A stretch of DNA of 24,169 nt from a virus: IMG/VR virus record IMGVR_UViG_3300036846_000406, positions 1 to 24,169 of that record. One strand, written 5' to 3'. This document shows positions 2,607 to 24,050 of the stretch, piece by piece. Position 1 is the first letter of the stretch. The number at the start of each line of letters is the position of its first letter. The translations under genes were made by a program, and so were the position numbers. The notes under the pieces were generated by a model. The model worked only from the letters and a program-made list of their open reading frames with translations, made no database searches and was not told where the DNA came from.

Positions 2607-3985
2607 CCGACCTTGATGTGCTCCGCGAGGCGTGTGCGGTGCAGCTCGACTGGCAGATTCCCCGCGCCGAGGTCTACCTGGCGTACTACGAGGGCGGCGC
2701 CGGGATCATCGCGCTGCTCGACACGGCCGAAAGGCAGACGTTCCGCAAGTTCCTGGACGAGTCCGCCGAGAACTGGTGCTGCCTGGTGGTGAACGCGGTC
2801 GCGGAGCGGCTGGCGGTGACCGGCTGGCGGTTCGGTGACTCCAGCGACACCGCGCAGTCGATCTGGCAGGCCAGCCACATGAACGCCGACCACAAGCTGG
2901 TCCAGCGTGACGCCCTGGTCACGGGCGGCGGGTACGTCCTGGTCCAGCCCGACGACGCCAACCCGACCGGCGTCACGATCACCGCCGAGAGCCCGTTGGA
3001 ATGCACGGTGCTCTACCAGCCGGGATCGCGGCGGGCGCGGCTGGCGGGCTACAAGCGGTTCGTGGAGCCGGTCAGCGAGAAGATCACCGAGGTCCTGATG
3101 ACCCCGGACACGATCGCAACGTGGTACCCGAACGCGGCCGGGCCGGTGCTGGCCGACAACCCGGCCGGTGAGGTCGGGCTGTTTGAGGTCGTGCCGCAGC
3201 CGCGGACCACGTTCGCGGGCGGCGCCAGCGAGCTTGACCCGTGCATCCCGATCCAGGACAGGGTGCATACGACCCTGTTCAACAGGTGCGTGGCCAGCGA
3301 CTTCGGGGCGTTCCGCCAGATATGGGCCAGCGGGATCAAACTGGCCAGGTCGATCATCACCAGCGACGACGGCAGCACTACTGAGGTCGCGGTCAAGCCG
3401 TTCGACATCGGCGCGAACCGGCTGCTGGTGAACGAGGACCCGGCCGGGCGGTTCGGCGCGTTTCCCGGCGACGGGCTGACCGGGTTCCTCGCGGCGGTGC
3501 AGCAGGACATCGAGGCGATGGCGTCGATCACCCGGACCCCCGCCTACTACTTCCCGACGACCAGGCTGGTCAACCTGTCCGCCGACGCGATCAAGGCGGC
3601 CGAGGCCGGTTTGGTGGCCAAGGTGTCCGACCGGGCCGACTTCATCGGTGAGGCGTGGACCGACGTGATGCGGCTGGCGCTGGCGCTGGTCGGTGACCCC
3701 GGCGCGACGATGGTTGACGCCGAGGTCATCTGGAAGGACTTTGAGACCAGATCGCAGGCTCAGTTGGCCGACGCGCTGACCAAGCTGGCGACTATCGGCA
3801 TTCCCGAGGAAGCGCTGTGGGCGCTGTTCGGCGCGTCGCCGCAGCAGATCGAGGACTGGAAGGCGATGAAGGCCGCCGAGCCGCCAGTCCCGGCCGCGCT
3901 GCCTAAGCCGGTCGGCGCACCGGGCGGCGCGGCCAGCGTCCCGGCGCCTGACGGCTCGCCAGCACCGGAAGGGGCAGCAGCATGA
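2603..3985 (+). CDS. Portal protein (SPP1 gp6-like)
   Basis: This protein forms the ring at one capsid vertex through which DNA enters and leaves, and it docks the terminase and the connector proteins. It has 460 residues, normal for the family. Family-like features are the N-terminal helical segment (DTAERQTFRKFLDESAENWCCLVVNAVAERLAVTGW), the mid-protein region with PLECTVLYQPGS and AGYKRFVE, and the long helical segment that ends in TRTPAYYFPTTRLVNLSADAIKAAEAGLVAKVSDR, a hallmark of this portal group. The C-terminus is Pro/Ala-rich and probably disordered. GTG 2603 has GGGAGG at 2592-2597, five bases upstream. The gene overlaps both neighbours. Confidence 0.92.
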   Translation: MTDLDVLREACAVQLDWQIPRAEVYLAYYEGGAGIIALLDTAERQTFRKFLDESAENWCCLVVNAVAERLAVTGWRFGDSSDTAQSIWQASHMNADHKLVQRDALVTGGGYVLVQPDDANPTGVTITAESPLECTVLYQPGSRRARLAGYKRFVEPVSEKITEVLMTPDTIATWYPNAAGPVLADNPAGEVGLFEVVPQPRTTFAGGASELDPCIPIQDRVHTTLFNRCVASDFGAFRQIWASGIKLARSIITSDDGSTTEVAVKPFDIGANRLLVNEDPAGRFGAFPGDGLTGFLAAVQQDIEAMASITRTPAYYFPTTRLVNLSADAIKAAEAGLVAKVSDRADFIGEAWTDVMRLALALVGDPGATMVDAEVIWKDFETRSQAQLADALTKLATIGIPEEALWALFGASPQQIEDWKAMKAAEPPVPAALPKPVGAPGGAASVPAPDGSPAPEGAAA

Positions 3986-4581
3986 CCAGTCCAGAGCCAA
4001 CGGCACCGCCGCTCCCCGCGCCGTCCAGCGGCAACGGACCGGCGCCGCTGCCCGCGCCGGGATCACCGCCAGCCCCGGCTCCACCGGCCGCCCCGGCTCC
4101 ACCACCGGCCGCCCCGGCTCCAGCCGGTGACGGCCAGGGCGACGCCGCCGAGCTTCGCGCCGCGCTGGCCGCCGCCCGCCGCGACCGTGAGGCCGTCCAG
4201 AAGGAGCTTGACAAGCTGCGGGCGCAGGGCATGACCGACCAGGAGCGCGCGGTCGCGGACGCCAAGGAATCGGGCCGCAAGGAAGCGTCGGTGGCGGCCG
4301 GGATCAGAGTCGCGGCGGCTGAGTTCCGCGCGCTGGCCGCTGGCAAGCTGGCCGACCCCGGCAAGATGCTGGAGGACGGCGACCTGAACCTTGCCCGGTT
4401 TGTCACCGACGACGGCGAGGTAGACAAGCGCGGCCTGGCGCGGCTGGTGGACAGGCTGGCGGCTGCCGCCGCGCCAGCGCCCAACCCCGGAACCGTCCCG
4501 GCCGGTCCGCGTGGCGCACCGCCCGAGCAGGACTTCCTCCGGGCCGCTCTCGGCGGCCACCCGCGCATCGGCGGCGGCTGA
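3982..4581 (+). CDS. Capsid scaffolding protein
   Basis: The 199-residue product fits an internal scaffold that organises capsid subunits during prohead assembly and then leaves. Residues 1-48 are an extremely Pro/Ala-rich low-complexity segment, encoded by short direct repeats near 4073-4126. Residues about 54-115 form a charged, heptad-like coiled coil (AELRAALAAARRDREAVQKE, then KLRAQGMTDQERAVADAKE). The C-terminal part (PPEQDFLRAALGGH) is short and amphipathic, as in capsid-binding tails of scaffolds. It starts with ATG 3982 overlapping the portal stop. There is no protease signature in it, and no prohead protease gene is evident nearby. Identification rests on composition, coiled coil and its place between portal and capsid genes. 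Confidence 0.82.
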   Translation: MTSPEPTAPPLPAPSSGNGPAPLPAPGSPPAPAPPAAPAPPPAAPAPAGDGQGDAAELRAALAAARRDREAVQKELDKLRAQGMTDQERAVADAKESGRKEASVAAGIRVAAAEFRALAAGKLADPGKMLEDGDLNLARFVTDDGEVDKRGLARLVDRLAAAAAPAPNPGTVPAGPRGAPPEQDFLRAALGGHPRIGGG

Positions 4582-4733
4582 CGCCGCGCCGGGCTGACAG
4601 TCCAACCGCCTACCCCGGTTGATCCATTCTCGGCCGCTGTGGGGAGCAACGGCCTGAGCGCCGGAACTGGCGCACGATCCCTCCACCCCACCTGTCCCGG
4701 CGCGGCGCCAGGAGTATCACGCTAGCTGACCGG
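4582..4733. terminator. Convergent intergenic region with hairpin, possible bidirectional terminator
   Basis: This gap separates the plus-strand scaffold gene from the stop of the minus-strand repeat protein, so transcription converges here. It contains an inverted repeat GCGCC (4658-4662) and GGCGC (4669-4673) around a six-base loop. No T-run follows on either strand, which is common for GC-rich actinobacterial terminators but weakens the call. The rest of the gap shows nothing I can assign. Confidence 0.3.
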
Positions 4734-5171
4734 CTATCGCCTGACTGGCTGGACGTAATCCGGGGCGTCGAACGGCGGCAGGTTGCCGAGCAGAAACTCC
4801 TTGAGCTTCTGCGCCTGCTCGGGCGGCAGCTCATCGACCGGCGGGGGAAGCACGATCGGGTGCGCCGGGTAGACCGGAATGTAGATCGGGTGCTCGGGAG
4901 ACAGTCCCGAGTCCGGGGGCGGGTCCACCGGCAGATAGATCGGGTGCTCCGGCTGCTCGCCACCGGGGGCGATCGGGTGCGCCGGGTGCTCGCCGCCAGG
5001 GGCGATCGGGTGCGCCGGGTAGACCGGGACGTAGATCGGGTGCTCGGGAGCCAGCCCCGAATCGGGCGGCGGGTCCACCGGAATGTAGATCGGGTGCTCC
5101 GGGTGGGCGTCGGCGTCAGCGGGCGTGTAACCCCAGCCCTGGACGACGAACATCTGTTGCTTGAGAGGCAT
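4734..5171 (-). CDS. Proline-rich HPIY-repeat protein, reverse strand, function unknown
   Basis: This is the only clear minus-strand gene in the window, and it sits inside the head module. The 145-residue product starts MPLKQQMFVVQGWGY, then carries about 90 residues of repeats built from HPIYIPV, DPPPDSGL and HPIAPGG, and ends with a helical segment (PPEQAQKLKEFLLGNLPPF). A 50-residue period is visible: two copies of a 99-base unit lie at 4854-4952 and 5004-5102, exactly 150 bases apart. The ATG at 5171 has a good ribosome binding site on its strand (GGAAGGA, five bases upstream), which argues for a real gene. No signal peptide or membrane helix is present. Extended Pro-rich repeats suggest a rod-like or sticky structural protein or a lysogen-expressed accessory gene. 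Neither can be decided here. Confidence 0.75.
   Translation of the reverse strand: MPLKQQMFVVQGWGYTPADADAHPEHPIYIPVDPPPDSGLAPEHPIYVPVYPAHPIAPGGEHPAHPIAPGGEQPEHPIYLPVDPPPDSGLSPEHPIYIPVYPAHPIVLPPPVDELPPEQAQKLKEFLLGNLPPFDAPDYVQPVRR
4854..5102 (-). repeat. Two 99-base direct repeats with 150-base period
   Basis: Copies at 4854-4952 and 5004-5102 are nearly identical and in phase, giving a 50-codon repeat in the proline-rich protein. The 51 bases between them contain a partial extra unit encoding HPIAPGGEHPAHPIAPGG. Differences between copies are mostly silent or conservative, so the duplication has been kept in frame. Confidence 0.8.
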
Positions 5172-5184
5172 GGCTGTCCTTCCG

Positions 5185-5213
5185 TTGGCATTGGTCTAGA
5201 CCAGTGACATACT
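5185..5213 (+). promoter_or_regulatory. Sigma-70-type promoter for the capsid gene
   Basis: TTGGCA (5185-5190) and CATACT (5208-5213) are separated by exactly 17 bases and match the -35 and -10 consensus at 5/6 and 4/6 positions. This is one of the best promoter-like matches in the window. The predicted start of transcription is near 5220. It would drive the major capsid gene, giving the capsid its own transcription in addition to read-through from upstream. Assigned from consensus only. Confidence 0.55.
5189..5206. promoter_or_regulatory. Operator-like palindrome in the divergent region
   Basis: TGGTCTAGACCA (5192-5203) is a perfect 12-base palindrome; extending to 5189-5206 gives 18 bases with one mismatched pair. 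It lies inside the spacer of the capsid promoter and 18-35 bases upstream of the reverse-strand gene's ATG. A dimeric repressor bound here would block both directions. No regulator gene is adjacent. Confidence 0.5.
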
Positions 5214-5343
5214 CGCACTGATGCCCGCGCGGCGTGATGCGGCGGGCAGCCGGTCACCGAATCCGGGCGACTCACAAGGCGGGACGCCGAGGCCGGGCCG
5301 GGTGCGCGGCGGGATGCGGCACCGGGCCGGTAGCGCAGAAAGC

Positions 5344-5359
5344 GGTGTGTCCACACACC
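5344..5359 (+). other. Leader hairpin upstream of the capsid ribosome binding site
   Basis: GGTGTG (5344-5349) pairs with CACACC (5354-5359) around a TCCA loop, ending 13 bases before the GGAGG at 5373-5377. It could stabilise the highly expressed capsid mRNA or affect its translation. The six-pair stem is modest. Confidence 0.3.
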
Positions 5360-5385
5360 TGCTCGCGTTACCGGAGGCCATTCTC

Positions 5386-6348
5386 ATGGCGCTTGGCGAT
5401 TTCAGTGGAGTAATCCCGCCACAGATCAGCGACCAAATCATGCAGGACGCCTTGCGGAGTTCGGCCGCCCTGCAACTGTGCAACCGCGTCCCGATGGGAA
5501 CCGGCGTCTTGCAGATGCCCGTCCCCAAGACCCTGCCGACCGCTTCGTGGGTGACCGCGAGCGGCACCGGCCGCAAGCCGTACACGAACATCGGGCTCCA
5601 GCCCGCCGTGCTGACCGCCGAGGAAGTGGCGGCAGTGATCGCGATTCCCGACAAGATGATCGAGGACTCCTCGATCAACCTGTGGGGGTTCGCCCGGCCG
5701 CTGCTCGCGCAGGCGATTGCGATGGCGCTCGACGGCGCCGTGATCTTCGGCCTCAACGCTCCCGCCAGCTTCCCGGCCGGGGGCGTCATGGGCGCCGCAA
5801 CGGCGATCAACGCCGGGTCCGACGCCATCGACTCGATCAACAAGGCGATGGCAGCGGTCGAAGCGGTCGGGCTCGACCCGGACGGGTCCGCGGCCGACCT
5901 GACGGTGCGGTCACGGCTCCGCAGCATCCGGGCGACGACCGGCGAGCTGGTGCTCGGCACGACCAGCATCGACAACTACCAGGTGCCGAGCCTCTACGGC
6001 CTGCCCGTCGCCTACACGCCATTCCAGAACAAGCAGGGCGCGAACCCGGCTGACTTCGTGACCGGCGACTGGGACTGGGCGATCCTCGGCGTCCGGCAGG
6101 ACATTCGCTACCTGCTCGACCCGAGCGCCGTCATCGCGGACGCATCTGGAGTCGTTCAAGTTAGCGGCTTCCAGGACAACGTGACCCCGCTGAAAATTTG
6201 GGCTCGGTTCGGGTTCGTGATCGTCAACCCGGTGACCGTGCTCCAGCCCGCAGGCGCGCACCCGTTCGCCAAGGTGGACACCGCCGCCGCGTCGGGCACC
6301 GCGCCGACCGCCACCAAGGCCGAGACAGGCACCAAGAAGGCCGCCTGA
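5386..6348 (+). CDS. Major capsid protein (HK97 fold)
   Basis: This is the main shell subunit. From ATG 5386 the product has 320 residues, beginning MALGDFSGVIPPQISDQIMQDALRSSAALQL. The pattern of a short helical start, a TASWV..G..KPYT..GL.P.VLTAEE.A.VI.IPDKMIEDS region, and a C-terminal WARFGFVIVNPVTVLQP strand is typical of HK97-fold capsid proteins of siphoviruses with a separate scaffold; there is no long delta domain. GGAGG at 5373-5377 is eight bases upstream of ATG 5386, which decides the start. The frame stays open upstream to ATG 5221, and that in-frame ATG lies at the predicted transcription start, so a leaderless form longer by 55 residues is conceivable. The extension contains a rare TTA codon at 5368-5370. 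The last ~25 residues are a low-complexity Ala/Thr/Lys tail. Confidence 0.92.
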   Translation: MALGDFSGVIPPQISDQIMQDALRSSAALQLCNRVPMGTGVLQMPVPKTLPTASWVTASGTGRKPYTNIGLQPAVLTAEEVAAVIAIPDKMIEDSSINLWGFARPLLAQAIAMALDGAVIFGLNAPASFPAGGVMGAATAINAGSDAIDSINKAMAAVEAVGLDPDGSAADLTVRSRLRSIRATTGELVLGTTSIDNYQVPSLYGLPVAYTPFQNKQGANPADFVTGDWDWAILGVRQDIRYLLDPSAVIADASGVVQVSGFQDNVTPLKIWARFGFVIVNPVTVLQPAGAHPFAKVDTAAASGTAPTATKAETGTKKAA

Positions 6349-12538: not shown

Positions 12539-15295
12539 ATGCCAGCTAGACGAGGACGCCGCGCCGCGACGCCGCGCACCCTGGCGCCCGTGCTGATCGT
12601 CCAGTGGACGCAGAGCGGCGTGAGCAACGCGACCCGTAGCGCGCCGGTCACCGCAGCCAGCCAGGCGGGCGACACGCTGCTCGTGTGCGTGGTCGCCAAC
12701 TCGACCAACTTTGCGAGCCCAACCTGCACCGATACGCAGGGCAACGTCTACACGCTCGACGGCAGCCAGGTCGCGACCAACCCGACCGGGGCGGTGTTCC
12801 GCTCGCCCGGTGCGACGGGCGGGCCGGGCGGCACGCCGACCAAGGCGCTATCCACGTCAGACAGCCTGACCCTCGGGGTGGGCTACTCGGGCACGATGTC
12901 GGTCGGTGCGACGGCGATGGCGGTCACGGGCGCCGGGGCGCTCGACAAGCTCCAGTTCAACGGCACCGGGGCCAGCGTGTCCAGCCTGACGCTCACGCTC
13001 AACAACGCGGGCGCCAACGACTCCATGGTGGGGTGCTGCTGGTCGCAGGTGGCCGGGGGCGCCGGATCGTGGAGCGCGCCGTTCACCACCGACACCAGCG
13101 TGAGCCAGACCCAAATGCACACCTGGGGCCACGTACTCGACGCGGGCGCGGCCGGGACGTTCAACGAGACCATGACCGTTGCCACCGGGCCGACGAACAT
13201 CCGCGGCGCCATGTGGTCGTTCCTGACTACCAGCGTCACCGGCACCGGGGCGATCCGGGCCAAGAAGATCGGGCTCGCCGGAACCGGCACCTACAGCCCG
13301 CCGATCACCGGCACGGGTGCCCTCGCCGCTAAGAAGATCAGCCTGGCCGGGTCGGGTACCTACACCGCGCCGATCACTGGCACGGGTGCCCTCGCGGCTA
13401 AGAAGATCGCGCTGGCAGGCACCGGCACGGTCGCTGGCGCTGGGATCACTGGCACGGGCTCAATCGCGGCTAAGAAGATCGCGCTGGCGGGCAGCGCTAC
13501 GACCAATCCACCAGTGAGCCGGGCCAACACGCTAGAGGGCGGGACGCAGGGCACGACGATCAGCGCGGCGAACTCTGGCGGTGCCTCGGGGGATGCTTTC
13601 AGTCAGTGCCTGGCTGGCACGAACGCGACGTGTGCCTATGACGGCACGCACGCGCACAGTGGCACCCTCGCCGCCTCGCTGAGCACAGGTGCCACCTCTG
13701 CCAACACTTACGTGTCATGGGCGCTCGGGCCTTTTCAGCAGGTCTGGGGCCGGTTCTATTACTGGGTCACCGCCAGCCCGACAGCCAATACCCGGATCGC
13801 CTCGTGCTACGCCAGCGGCATCACGACTGTGCGCGCGTTCATCCGGCACAACAGCGGCGGCAAGCTGGCTGCCTGTGACTCAACCTCGGCCATCCTCTGG
13901 ACCAGCACGAGCGCGCTGCCAGTCGGCCAGTGGGTCCGCGTCGAATTCGGCTGTCTCGGTGACCCCAGCGCGGGACAGCTCTGGGTGGCCTACTACGCCA
14001 GCCCAGAGAGCACTACCCCGACCGAGCAATTCACCAGCCCGGCGACGGCCAACCTGGGCGGCCCTGTCGGCTCGGTGGCCTTCGGTGTCAGCAACCAGGC
14101 CAACGTCCCGCAGACCTGGTGGGATGACATGGCCATCAGCACGGTCGGCCCGCTGGGGCCAACAGGTGCGCCGCCGCCGATCACCGGCACGGGGGCCGTT
14201 GCTGCCAAGAAGATCGCGCTGGCAGGCACCGGGACATTCAGCAGCGGGATCACCGGCACCGGGGCCATAGCTGCCAAGAAGATCGCGCTGGCAGGCACCG
14301 GCACGGCCAGCGCCACCCCCGGCCCGATCACCGGCACAGGCGCGGTGACTGCCAAGAAGATCAGCCTGGCTGGCACCGGCACGGTCACCGCGCCCGTGGT
14401 GGTCGCGCCCGCGATCGTGCCGGGGCCGACGCTGCTGCCGGTGATCTGGGACGGGCTCAGCCTGAACGACGGCGACCGGGGCGACGGGCTGACCACGGTC
14501 GTGACCAACATCGACGGCTGGTACGGCTCGCCCGCGCTGGCCGGGAACGACCTGGCGCGGGCGCTCACCGATGGCGCCATTTACGGGTTCAAGACGGTCG
14601 CGCCACGGGTGATCGCGATAACCGGGGCGGTGGTGGCCGCCGACGCGGGCTCGCGGGCCGTGCTCAACGCCTTCGCCCGGTCGCTGTCCGCCAAGGCGGT
14701 CGCCGCCGAGCCGGTGGACCTGCTCGTCGGAGAGGACGAGGGCTCCCCCGATGGCACCGTGACGTTGCTCGCGGCCAGCGTCCGGGCCGACAGCAGCCAG
14801 CTCGCCGTGGCCTGGACCGGGCGGCTGTTCTTCACCTGGACGGTTGAGCTGACCGCCGCCGACCCGCGACTGTATGAGGCCGCGTGGCAGTCGGCGGTCG
14901 TGATCCCGGCCGCGTCGGGCGGGCAGACGGGGCGGCTCTACCCGCTGACCATGCCGCGCCGGTACGCGAGCGCGACCGCCGCCAACTCGGTCCGGCTGAC
15001 CAACGACGGGAACGCTCCGGTCCCGGTTTGGGCCACCTACACGGGTGACCTGTCGGAGTCGCGGCTCACGGACGGGGCGACGACGGTCCACCTGGCGCCG
15101 CTGGGTGCAGCGCAGCAGATCACCGTGAACACTGAGACGCTGACCGCGACCGCGCCGGGCGGGGTGTCGCGGGCCTCGTACCTGATGGCCGGGTCGGCGC
15201 CGCTGGTGATCGCGCCCTACGCCACCGTCACCTGGTCGCTGTACGGCACCGGGGGCGGGCACGTCGCGCTGTCCTGGCGCGGGGTGTGGGCATGA
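12539..15295 (+). CDS. Distal tail (Dit-like) protein fused to repeat and lectin-like modules
   Basis: This 918-residue mosaic protein has five parts. Residues 1-232 are a beta-rich domain (AGDTLLVCVVANSTNF, DTQGNVYTLDG). Residues 233-325 hold four copies of a 23-residue repeat (core GTGAIAAKKIALAGTGT). Residues 326-547 hold a concanavalin-like lectin module beginning VSRANTLEGGTQGTTISAANSGG and ending WWDDMAISTVGPLGPTG. Residues 548-619 hold three more repeats. Residues 620-918 resemble siphovirus distal tail/Sipho_tail proteins (WDGLSLNDGDRGDGLTTVVTNIDGWYG through AVAWTGRLFFTWTVELTAADPRLYEA). The C-terminal part would form the ring at the tail tip; the N-terminal modules probably bind cell-surface sugars. 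GGGAGGG at 12526-12532 supports ATG 12539. The next gene overlaps by four bases. Confidence 0.85.
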   Translation: MPARRGRRAATPRTLAPVLIVQWTQSGVSNATRSAPVTAASQAGDTLLVCVVANSTNFASPTCTDTQGNVYTLDGSQVATNPTGAVFRSPGATGGPGGTPTKALSTSDSLTLGVGYSGTMSVGATAMAVTGAGALDKLQFNGTGASVSSLTLTLNNAGANDSMVGCCWSQVAGGAGSWSAPFTTDTSVSQTQMHTWGHVLDAGAAGTFNETMTVATGPTNIRGAMWSFLTTSVTGTGAIRAKKIGLAGTGTYSPPITGTGALAAKKISLAGSGTYTAPITGTGALAAKKIALAGTGTVAGAGITGTGSIAAKKIALAGSATTNPPVSRANTLEGGTQGTTISAANSGGASGDAFSQCLAGTNATCAYDGTHAHSGTLAASLSTGATSANTYVSWALGPFQQVWGRFYYWVTASPTANTRIASCYASGITTVRAFIRHNSGGKLAACDSTSAILWTSTSALPVGQWVRVEFGCLGDPSAGQLWVAYYASPESTTPTEQFTSPATANLGGPVGSVAFGVSNQANVPQTWWDDMAISTVGPLGPTGAPPPITGTGAVAAKKIALAGTGTFSSGITGTGAIAAKKIALAGTGTASATPGPITGTGAVTAKKISLAGTGTVTAPVVVAPAIVPGPTLLPVIWDGLSLNDGDRGDGLTTVVTNIDGWYGSPALAGNDLARALTDGAIYGFKTVAPRVIAITGAVVAADAGSRAVLNAFARSLSAKAVAAEPVDLLVGEDEGSPDGTVTLLAASVRADSSQLAVAWTGRLFFTWTVELTAADPRLYEAAWQSAVVIPAASGGQTGRLYPLTMPRRYASATAANSVRLTNDGNAPVPVWATYTGDLSESRLTDGATTVHLAPLGAAQQITVNTETLTATAPGGVSRASYLMAGSAPLVIAPYATVTWSLYGTGGGHVALSWRGVWA
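13235..13513 (+). repeat. Four in-frame repeats, first block (69-72 base units)
   Basis: Units begin at 13235, 13304, 13373 and 13445 and encode variants of ITGTGAxAAKKIxLAGTGT followed by a variable linker. DNA identity between units is high, for example the shared GCTAAGAAGATC core. Confidence 0.88.
13514..14179 (+). other. Lectin-like module inserted within a repeat array
   Basis: This 222-codon segment interrupts the repeats. Its start (NTLEGGTQGTTISAANSGGASGDAF) and its end (WWDDMAIS) are typical of a concanavalin A-like module common in actinobacterial and phage proteins. Codons such as TCT, ACT, TTT and TAT are more frequent than in flanking DNA, which suggests separate origin. Confidence 0.7.
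14180..14395 (+). repeat. Three in-frame repeats, second block (69-78 base units)
   Basis: Units begin at 14180, 14249 and 14327 and encode the same ITGTGAxxAKKIxLAGTGT core as the first block, on the far side of the lectin-like module. Confidence 0.88.
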
Positions 15296-22291: not shown

Positions 22292-22563
22292 CGTGGGAGG
22301 ACGCCGCGACCGGGCTCCGGGTGGAGTTTGTGGTGCTGAGCCACGTTGACCCCGTGAACCGGGGCGAGCACAACCGGGTGCCCAAGCCGATCGACGGGCC
22401 GCAGTTTTGCGTGACGGCGCCGATGGGCGGCGGCGGCCGGTGCGCGGTGGGCGCCGCCCGCACTGCTGAGCAGCTTGCCGCGCTCGGGGTGTCCGCCGAG
22501 ACCATAGCCGCGATCGAGGCGGTGGCCAGGCCCGACGCCTACCGGGAGCAGGTGACCCCGTGA
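22288..22563 (+). CDS. Hypothetical protein upstream of the integrase
   Basis: The 91-residue product starts MTWEDAATGLRVEFVVLSHV. It has a beta-type N-terminal region, a Gly-rich turn (APMGGGGRCAVGAARTAEQL) and a final helix (SAETIAAIEAVARPDAYREQ). AGGAGG at 22275-22280 is seven bases upstream of ATG 22288, which overlaps the previous stop. Its own stop overlaps the integrase GTG by four bases. No family is recognised. Small genes coupled to serine integrases sometimes encode recombination directionality factors, but nothing in the sequence shows this. Confidence 0.6.
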   Translation: MTWEDAATGLRVEFVVLSHVDPVNRGEHNRVPKPIDGPQFCVTAPMGGGGRCAVGAARTAEQLAALGVSAETIAAIEAVARPDAYREQVTP

Positions 22564-24050
22564 CCGGCGTAGTGGCGCTGATCTGCCGGGTGAGCCCGCG
22601 CCCTGACGGCAAGGTGGAGGGCGTTGACGATCAGGAGAAGTGGGGCCGCGCCTACGCCGCGACGCGCTGGCCTGGGAGCCCCGTGGAAGTGTTTGCCGAC
22701 CGGGCGGTGTCCGCCACCAACGGTGACTACCGCGAGGGCCTGGAGCGGTTCCTCAAGGCGCTGGCCGACGACCGGGTGGCGCACGCCTGGGCGGTCGAGC
22801 AGTCCAGGGTGAGCCGCGAGACCGATGGCCGCTACCCGTGGTTCGCCGTGGCCGCGCAGATGGACGCGGCCGGGGTCGGGGAACTGCACACCGACCGCGA
22901 CGGGATCGTGCGGGTGGGCGATGCCGTGGCCGGGATCAAAGCCGTGCTGGCAGCCGAGGAGGTCCGAAGGATGAGGCGCCGGGTGAAGGACAAGAAGGAC
23001 GAGCTACGCGCGGAGGGCAACCTGCGGCGGGTGCTCGGGGGCGTGCCGACGCTGGGCTACACCTACCGCGACGGCGACCCGGACTGGAGCCCCGAGCCGG
23101 GCGCGGCGCGGCTCCTGCGGGACGTGGCCGCGCAGGTGCTGGCCGACCCCGAGCACCGGGTTAGGACCGCCTACGAGGCCGCGATGAAGCTGGCACGGCA
23201 CCGGAAGGTCCGCGACGCGGCGGGCCGGGTGCCGACCGAGAACATGGTCCGCGACGCGCTCCAGCGGCCAGCGACGGCCGGGCTGATCACCGAGGCCGCC
23301 GCCCGCGAGGGCGAGTACGGCAAGGTGGTCGGCCGGGCCGCGACGATCACCGACCCGCCGCTGCCCGAGCAGACCTGGCGCGACCTGCGGGCGGTGTTCG
23401 GCGGCCGGAAGCTGGGGCGCCGGGTAAGCAACGGCGACTACTGGGCCGGGCCGCTGCTCCGGTGCGGGAAGTGCGGCAACCCGATGTCCGGCGAACAGCA
23501 GAAGCCGCGCCGGGGCAAGACCGGAACGCCGGTCCCGTACTACCGCTGCATGAACCCGCACCCGAGCATGGGCATCACCCGGCCGTGCCGGGGCTGCTCG
23601 ATACGGGCCGCCGACGTAAACCAGATGATCCAAAGGGCGGTCGAGCGGTGGGCCGCGACCAGCCCCGCGTTTGCCGCCGCGAGCGCGGTCCGGGCGGGCC
23701 AGGCCACCGAGCGGGACCGGCTGGCCGCGGAGCTTGCCGACGAGCGGCGGCGCTGGACCCGGCTGGCGGTGCGGGCCGCGCGGGGTGAGTTTGACGACGA
23801 CCTGTGGGCCGAGGCCGAGCAGGAGCATGACGCCACGGTGGCCAGGATCGGGCGCGAGCTTGCCGCGATCACCGAGAACCTGGCCGCGCCGCCGATGCCC
23901 AGTGAGGTCCGGTGGGACAAGCTGACCGGCGACGAGCGCCGGGCGCTGGCCGCCCGCGCGCTGGTGATGCCGGTCAAGGTTGCGCCTGGGAACGGCGGCG
24001 GCGCTGCCCTGACCGCCACCGAGCGGATCGCACTGCGGGTACGCAAGTGA
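22560..24050 (+). CDS. int: Large serine integrase (site-specific recombinase)
   Basis: The enzyme integrates the phage into the host chromosome by cutting attP and attB with a 5' phosphoserine link. It has 496 residues, normal for the family. The resolvase domain (1-145) has R10 and S12 (ICRVSPRPDG), with S12 as the nucleophile, and the active-site Arg pair R83 and R86 (VEQSRVSRE); the usual Asp before the first Arg is Ser82. The recombinase domain follows (150-290; GVPTLGYTYRDGD), then a zinc ribbon with C302, C305, C330 and C343 or C346 (RCGKCGNPMSG, YRCMNP, CRGCS). A coiled-coil region lies at about 375-445. GTG 22560 overlaps the previous gene's stop. Confidence 0.95.
   Translation: MTGVVALICRVSPRPDGKVEGVDDQEKWGRAYAATRWPGSPVEVFADRAVSATNGDYREGLERFLKALADDRVAHAWAVEQSRVSRETDGRYPWFAVAAQMDAAGVGELHTDRDGIVRVGDAVAGIKAVLAAEEVRRMRRRVKDKKDELRAEGNLRRVLGGVPTLGYTYRDGDPDWSPEPGAARLLRDVAAQVLADPEHRVRTAYEAAMKLARHRKVRDAAGRVPTENMVRDALQRPATAGLITEAAAREGEYGKVVGRAATITDPPLPEQTWRDLRAVFGGRKLGRRVSNGDYWAGPLLRCGKCGNPMSGEQQKPRRGKTGTPVPYYRCMNPHPSMGITRPCRGCSIRAADVNQMIQRAVERWAATSPAFAAASAVRAGQATERDRLAAELADERRRWTRLAVRAARGEFDDDLWAEAEQEHDATVARIGRELAAITENLAAPPMPSEVRWDKLTGDERRALAARALVMPVKVAPGNGGGAALTATERIALRVRK

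Follow-up and report, generated by a model that had tools for sequence, protein, structure and literature searches.

A single minus-strand gene interrupts the head genes of a soil phage just before its capsid gene, which raises two questions: what is this gene, and what controls the capsid gene that lies behind it? The window (i.e., the whole 24,169-nt stretch analyzed here, IMG/VR record IMGVR_UViG_3300036846_000406) is a 24-kb virus record that encodes, on its plus strand, a terminase, an SPP1-type portal, a scaffold, an HK97-fold capsid, tail genes, an endolysin, and a large serine integrase (22560-24050). The scaffolding protein gene (3982-4581, plus strand) was recognized by a match to phrog_4708, and the major capsid protein gene (5386-6348, plus strand; start codon 5386-5388) by a match to Phage_capsid (1.2e-26), with a Shine-Dalgarno GGAGG at 5373-5377. 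Between the two, exactly as described in a first-pass annotation of this DNA, lies one gene of opposite orientation (4734-5171, minus strand), which we refer to as the HPIY gene after its repeats. The gene order terminase-portal-scaffold-capsid is shared by 22 contigs whose capsids are 65-85% identical to that of the window, as far as each contig extends; no relatives of this capsid were confirmed in 84,980 bacterial and archaeal species genomes. Two features of neighboring genes were observed in passing. The scaffold proteins of the lineage (3982-4581 and relatives) mostly carry a conserved D-F/W-L-R motif near the C-terminus, perhaps a capsid-binding tail, and a tail-region gene (12539-15295) contains many copies of an ITGTGAxAAKKIxLAGTGT-like repeat.

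The HPIY gene encodes a proline-rich, mostly disordered protein of 145 aa. The anatomy noted at first pass was confirmed throughout: the gene has its own ribosome binding site (GGAAGGA on the minus strand, 5177-5183) and an ATG start; HPIY/DPPPDSGL/HPIAPGG repeats recur with a 50-residue period between two large copies; and the C-terminus, which carries FLxGNLPP, contains a helix (residues 117-127) that is the only predicted secondary structure. HPI occurs at residues 26, 44, 54, 65, 76, 94, and 104, and a 33-bp tandem repeat is present in the DNA of the gene. AlphaFold2 run on the family alignment returned an apparently disordered chain (pLDDT 53) that is uninformative except for the C-terminal helix.

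Homologues are found in other phages. A single-sequence query detected 41 IMG/VR loci, and a query with the alignment detected 112, of which 80 were kept; in an alignment of 11 members, the PEHPIY repeats are invariant and an F..GNLP tail is common to all. Comparison with the nearest homologue (on contig L002) gave a dN/dS of ~0.25 (0.19/0.75), indicative of purifying selection, and the GC content by codon position is 0.78/0.44/0.87. A chance ORF is ruled out by the homologues, the dN/dS value, and the codon-position GC, which together identify the HPIY gene as a real gene of a real family. Among the databases searched, this family is known from uncultivated virus contigs only: no homologues were found in the isolated phages or plasmids searched, and 12 pattern matches in the 84,980 bacterial and archaeal species genomes yielded no confirmed member. 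The protein has no match in Pfam, PHROG, or NCBIfam, and thus belongs by similarity to no known head decoration family; it likewise has no match in the PDB or among the PADLOC models of known anti-phage defence proteins, and no description of the family was found in the open-access literature.

The first-pass annotation had likened this layout to an accessory or moron-like insertion, and the comparison with relatives supports that reading. The gene is absent beside the capsid in all 22 of the closest capsid relatives, within the stretch that each contig covers. One relative, L064, represents an empty site: it aligns to window positions 4301-4724 and 5220-5700 with only ~25 bp between them, so that ~495 bp (4725-5219) were inserted or exchanged. 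Besides the HPIY gene, this cassette contains the capsid promoter in the form found in the window, and has no counterpart in L064 apart from those 25 bp. On its left, it is bordered by a non-coding stretch reaching back to the scaffold gene (4582-4724), which is ~83% identical to L064; the core of this stretch has a single exact match in IMG/VR, again L064, and contains the hairpin-like GAGCGCCGGAACTGGCGC.

In addition, homologues occupy other positions and orientations in related phages. The nearest one lies in forward orientation between the small and large terminase genes of L002, a phage that shares 59% identity with the window in its terminase and 53% in its portal. Others lie after the capsid gene (L006 and L008), between portal and capsid (L041), before the terminase (L010 and L019), or after it (L030 and L032). 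The idea that homologues would also sit reversed before capsid genes was not borne out: those of L002, L006, L008, L010, L030, L032, and L041 are co-oriented with the neighboring head genes. On these comparative grounds, we regard the HPIY gene as mobile, accessory, and moron-like; it encodes a member of a family of short soil-phage proteins and would have been inserted in reverse between scaffold and capsid just upstream of the capsid transcription start.

Does its product belong to the virion? Many HPIY homologues have a capsid, portal, or terminase gene as neighbor, and these genes belong to unrelated families; because the HPIY family keeps returning to head modules, it may be virion-related. 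The head association suggested at first pass gains support from this frequent adjacency, support of an indirect kind. Taken together with the anatomy of the protein, the neighborhood makes a virion role plausible: the product would be made late and be associated with the virion head, the conserved C-terminal helix and GNLPP tail would attach, and the repeats would form an extended arm. Alternatively, the gene might be a lysogenic-conversion or host-interaction moron without any tie to the virion, which we regard as possible rather than probable. The gene is reversed, mobile, and absent from relatives, the window carries a serine integrase, and several HPIY relatives adjoin endolysin/lysis or tail genes instead of head genes; however, no relatives were confirmed in cellular genomes, the homologues often adjoin head and packaging genes, and a simple consensus scan found neither a minus-strand promoter nor a terminator for the gene. 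For the independent control that had been ascribed to the gene, the same scan yielded no minus-strand promoter as a candidate. The HPIY gene resembles phage morons and accessory head-operon inserts in being a single gene on the opposite strand, absent from close relatives, with a precise empty site, but differs from them in having no promoter or terminator of its own detectable by the simple scan, and in the recurrence of its family in head modules. Its significance is that of a family of soil-virus proteins that has no match in the curated libraries searched and recurs in unrelated head modules. As a separate observation, the scaffold-capsid gap of another contig, L049, holds a different small minus-strand gene (~1255-1430, 55 aa, CxxC...H, MAYVPVQVWVPD...), whose relatives (on L308, L309, L310, and L311) sit elsewhere, e.g., in forward orientation after the capsid gene (L310) or at the small-terminase end (L308).

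What, then, lies on the capsid side of the cassette? DNA similarity to the capsid relatives resumes at 5220 and extends over the 166 non-coding bases that precede the capsid start, and reading the relatives side by side revealed hairpins with compensating changes in this interval (5220-5385, plus strand), a structured RNA that had escaped the first-pass annotation. Fourteen sequences and a structure drawn by eye were the basis of a covariance model, and the structure was later tested on sequences outside the drawing set. The window matches the model at 5220-5370 with 132 bits, and 69 of 75 sources match in total (the model's E-values are rough). Among the six non-matching sources, two (L087 and L118) start inside the capsid gene; the remaining four were included for contrast and are HPIY loci from other phages. 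A second set of contigs was found with a 22-base DNA pattern that covers hairpin P2 only and is blind to the capsid gene; all 47 of these further contigs match the model, and the next gene after the leader is this capsid in 46 of the 46 that could be tested. Collectively, wherever a relative's contig reaches far enough upstream, the predicted leader precedes the capsid gene; this amounts to about a hundred soil phages, with the linkage examined in the contigs retrieved. The relatives that carry the leader are all metagenomic contigs, among them many fragments and some near-duplicates. The isolated actinophages Bridgette, JacoRen57, Muddy, and ReT1v-2 share the order portal, scaffold, capsid, with capsids ~32-33% identical, but their scaffold-capsid gaps are 17-39 bp long and contain no leader RNA.

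The base pairs are well supported by covariation. In the first set, 90.2% of cells are paired, 27 of 34 pairs have changed on both sides (9-13 in slid structures), and compensatory cells number 218 against at most 51 in the slid controls. Since this alignment was fitted to the model and favors the structure, the second set matters: here, 93.0% of cells are paired, with 138 compensatory cells versus at most 29 in controls. The structure was recovered neither by plain RNAalifold on a MAFFT alignment nor by folding the single sequence (z -0.94). No match at the gathering score was obtained against Rfam 15 (4227 families) for the window and ten relatives, nor at E values up to 5 for four further relatives, and no description of such an RNA was found in the open-access literature. 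Copies of the hairpin motif elsewhere in the window do not exceed chance in number, and the best two lie within the leader itself.

We also considered whether the leader might be an N-terminal extension of the capsid protein. In the window the frame is indeed open (ORF 5221-6348), but it is open in only 11 of 106 leaders, and the distance from leader to start codon occurs in all three frames, which leads us to consider the leader non-coding. A simple scan found no intrinsic terminator in 4560-5400, and so none within the leader, which is not what transcription attenuation would call for. The leader does have the hallmarks of a structured cis-regulatory element, namely compensatory base changes and a constant place ahead of one and the same gene, downstream of a predicted promoter.

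That promoter had been proposed at first pass as a promoter-like sequence for the capsid gene, separated from the HPIY gene by an operator-like palindrome. Of these two elements, the first proved sound. A consensus scan identified a sigma-70-like promoter, TTGGCA-17-CATACT (5185-5213, plus strand), of which one was found against 0.1 expected, and it is conserved in relatives: counted from the leader's first base, 103 leaders are preceded by a TTGAC-like box at -36 to -32 and by TAnnCT at -12 to -7. Because the boxes keep a fixed distance from the leader start, the RNA is predicted to begin at its own first G (5220). The palindrome fared differently. The 12-bp TGGTCTAGACCA in the promoter spacer (5192-5203) is one of 4 perfect 12-bp palindromes in the window, where simple 4^-6 chance predicts ~6, and it is absent from the promoters of relatives. 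We thus rejected it as an operator and regard it as a chance palindrome within the capsid promoter; the conserved control element would be the RNA on the capsid side. Given that the right edge of the HPIY cassette coincides exactly with the predicted transcription start, its arrival would have brought or kept a working promoter and left the leader RNA intact.

According to the model, the leader folds into five hairpins. P1 (5222-5248) is formed by 5222-5227 and 5243-5248, with a tip stem (5232-5234/5238-5240) and the tip loop UGA (5235-5237); P3 (5278-5288) and P4 (5296-5327), the latter with P1-like architecture, both carry the tip loop GGA. P2 (5250-5266) has the loop ACCG (5256-5259), which pairs with CGGU (5343-5346) in a predicted pseudoknot, and P5 (5344-5359) pairs GGUGUGU with ACACACC. 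Across the relatives, the pseudoknot between RCCG and CGGY is 99.2% paired and includes an A-U/G-C exchange, the A/T exchange representing few independent events on the tree (~2/4). As the 3' strand of the pseudoknot overlaps the 5' strand of P5, and P5 has covariation of its own, the two are expected to compete.

The tips of P1, P3, and P4 share the same small loop, NGA (UGU in P1 and P4 of a few phages), and 75 of 85 phages have an identical base N at all three. A quick capsid tree, the source of the counts of changes, shows that the tip base has changed at least 24 times among the concordant phages. When phylogenetically independent pairs of phages differ at the P1 tip, the tips of P3 and P4 follow in 12 of 12 cases for C (p 0.0005), ~12 of 14 for T, and ~7-8 of 9 for G, and the opposite change occurred in none. 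Shared ancestry alone does not explain this concerted evolution. Since the three tips change together, the simplest reading is that they have one shared binding partner, which would change along with them.

We propose that the leader represents a previously uncatalogued family of cis-regulatory RNAs controlling capsid expression. The capsid gene would be transcribed from its own promoter, starting at 5220, and the first ~165 nt of the transcript would fold into the five-hairpin, pseudoknotted leader. A single phage-encoded or phage-adapted partner, probably a protein, would bind several of the P1, P3, and P4 tips at once and thereby set the amount of capsid, either via translation initiation or by letting the polymerase continue through the structural operon; the present data fit both and do not separate them. 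A scan of the capsid and scaffold proteins for residues that change along with the tip base gave nothing convincing (best p 0.0018 among 260 columns and 0.0004 among 142 columns, respectively), no column clearly surviving multiple testing, and so the partner may be another protein. That the HPIY gene is absent beside the other leaders examined argues against a functional link between its product and the RNA. The account as a whole, in which a mobile HPIY gene abuts a conserved capsid promoter and a pseudoknotted leader with a tip-reading partner, seems to us reasonably probable.

More tentatively, the three identical tips may constitute a phage-specific recognition code whose letter changes in all three at once, lineage after lineage, with each regulator reading its own capsid message. 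If so, a regulator would ignore the capsid message of a competing phage in the same cell. Whatever its letters signify, a covarying leader linked to the capsid gene in a large lineage of soil phages points to dedicated RNA control of capsid synthesis.

Among specific versions of such control, a translational operator is a candidate to which we give limited credence. RNA-phage coat proteins and T4 gp32 act on their messages in this way, and here the capsid or scaffold protein would repress capsid synthesis until assembly uses up the free protein. The strict linkage to the capsid gene, the end of the leader at the Shine-Dalgarno sequence, three like hairpins that would suit a multimer, and the concerted change of their tips are consistent with this. 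Against it stand the failure to find convincing co-change with capsid or scaffold residues and the accessibility of the Shine-Dalgarno sequence, which shows no trend (0.37 vs 0.345 overall), being neither specially hidden nor specially exposed, and so lends no direct support to translational control. The leader resembles autoregulated leaders such as those of ribosomal proteins and the T4 gp32 operator in that a folded 5' RNA precedes the gene for a protein that is abundant and assembles, but differs in having no Rfam match and a partner that is putative.

Somewhat less likely, in our judgment, is antitermination of the kind known from lambda nut/boxB and HK022 put, in which the leader would modify the polymerase soon after it leaves the promoter so that it transcribes the long capsid-to-lysis operon. 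The RNA begins at the predicted transcription start, a long run of co-oriented structural genes follows, the simple scan detected no intrinsic terminator in the leader, and small-loop hairpins with concerted loop letters recall N/boxB pairs, which are phage-specific. As in lambda and HK022, a phage hairpin RNA would stand at the start of a long operon, its tip-loop letters varying between phages while the fold is kept. However, this leader always lies directly before the same capsid gene and has no Rfam match, and with three like hairpins, a pseudoknot, and a length of ~165 nt, it differs from those elements, to which a sequence relation is at most putative.

A metabolite riboswitch is improbable: the pseudoknot 3' strand (5343-5346) and P5 do share bases, would be mutually exclusive, and both covary, but one unvarying ligand should not make three tip bases change in concert again and again, and the leader precedes one phage gene only. 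Similarly improbable is a role in trans or as a structural RNA, for example in packaging or in building the capsid as with phi29 pRNA, with the capsid transcript serving only as its carrier. The complex fold with repeated hairpins and the head-gene context might suggest such a role, but the RNA matches no Rfam family, and the capsid reading frame follows it immediately throughout. Finally, the hairpins themselves vary in one clade (L043-L045), where P1 and P4 carry UGU tips instead of NGA, and an extra hairpin precedes the Shine-Dalgarno sequence.
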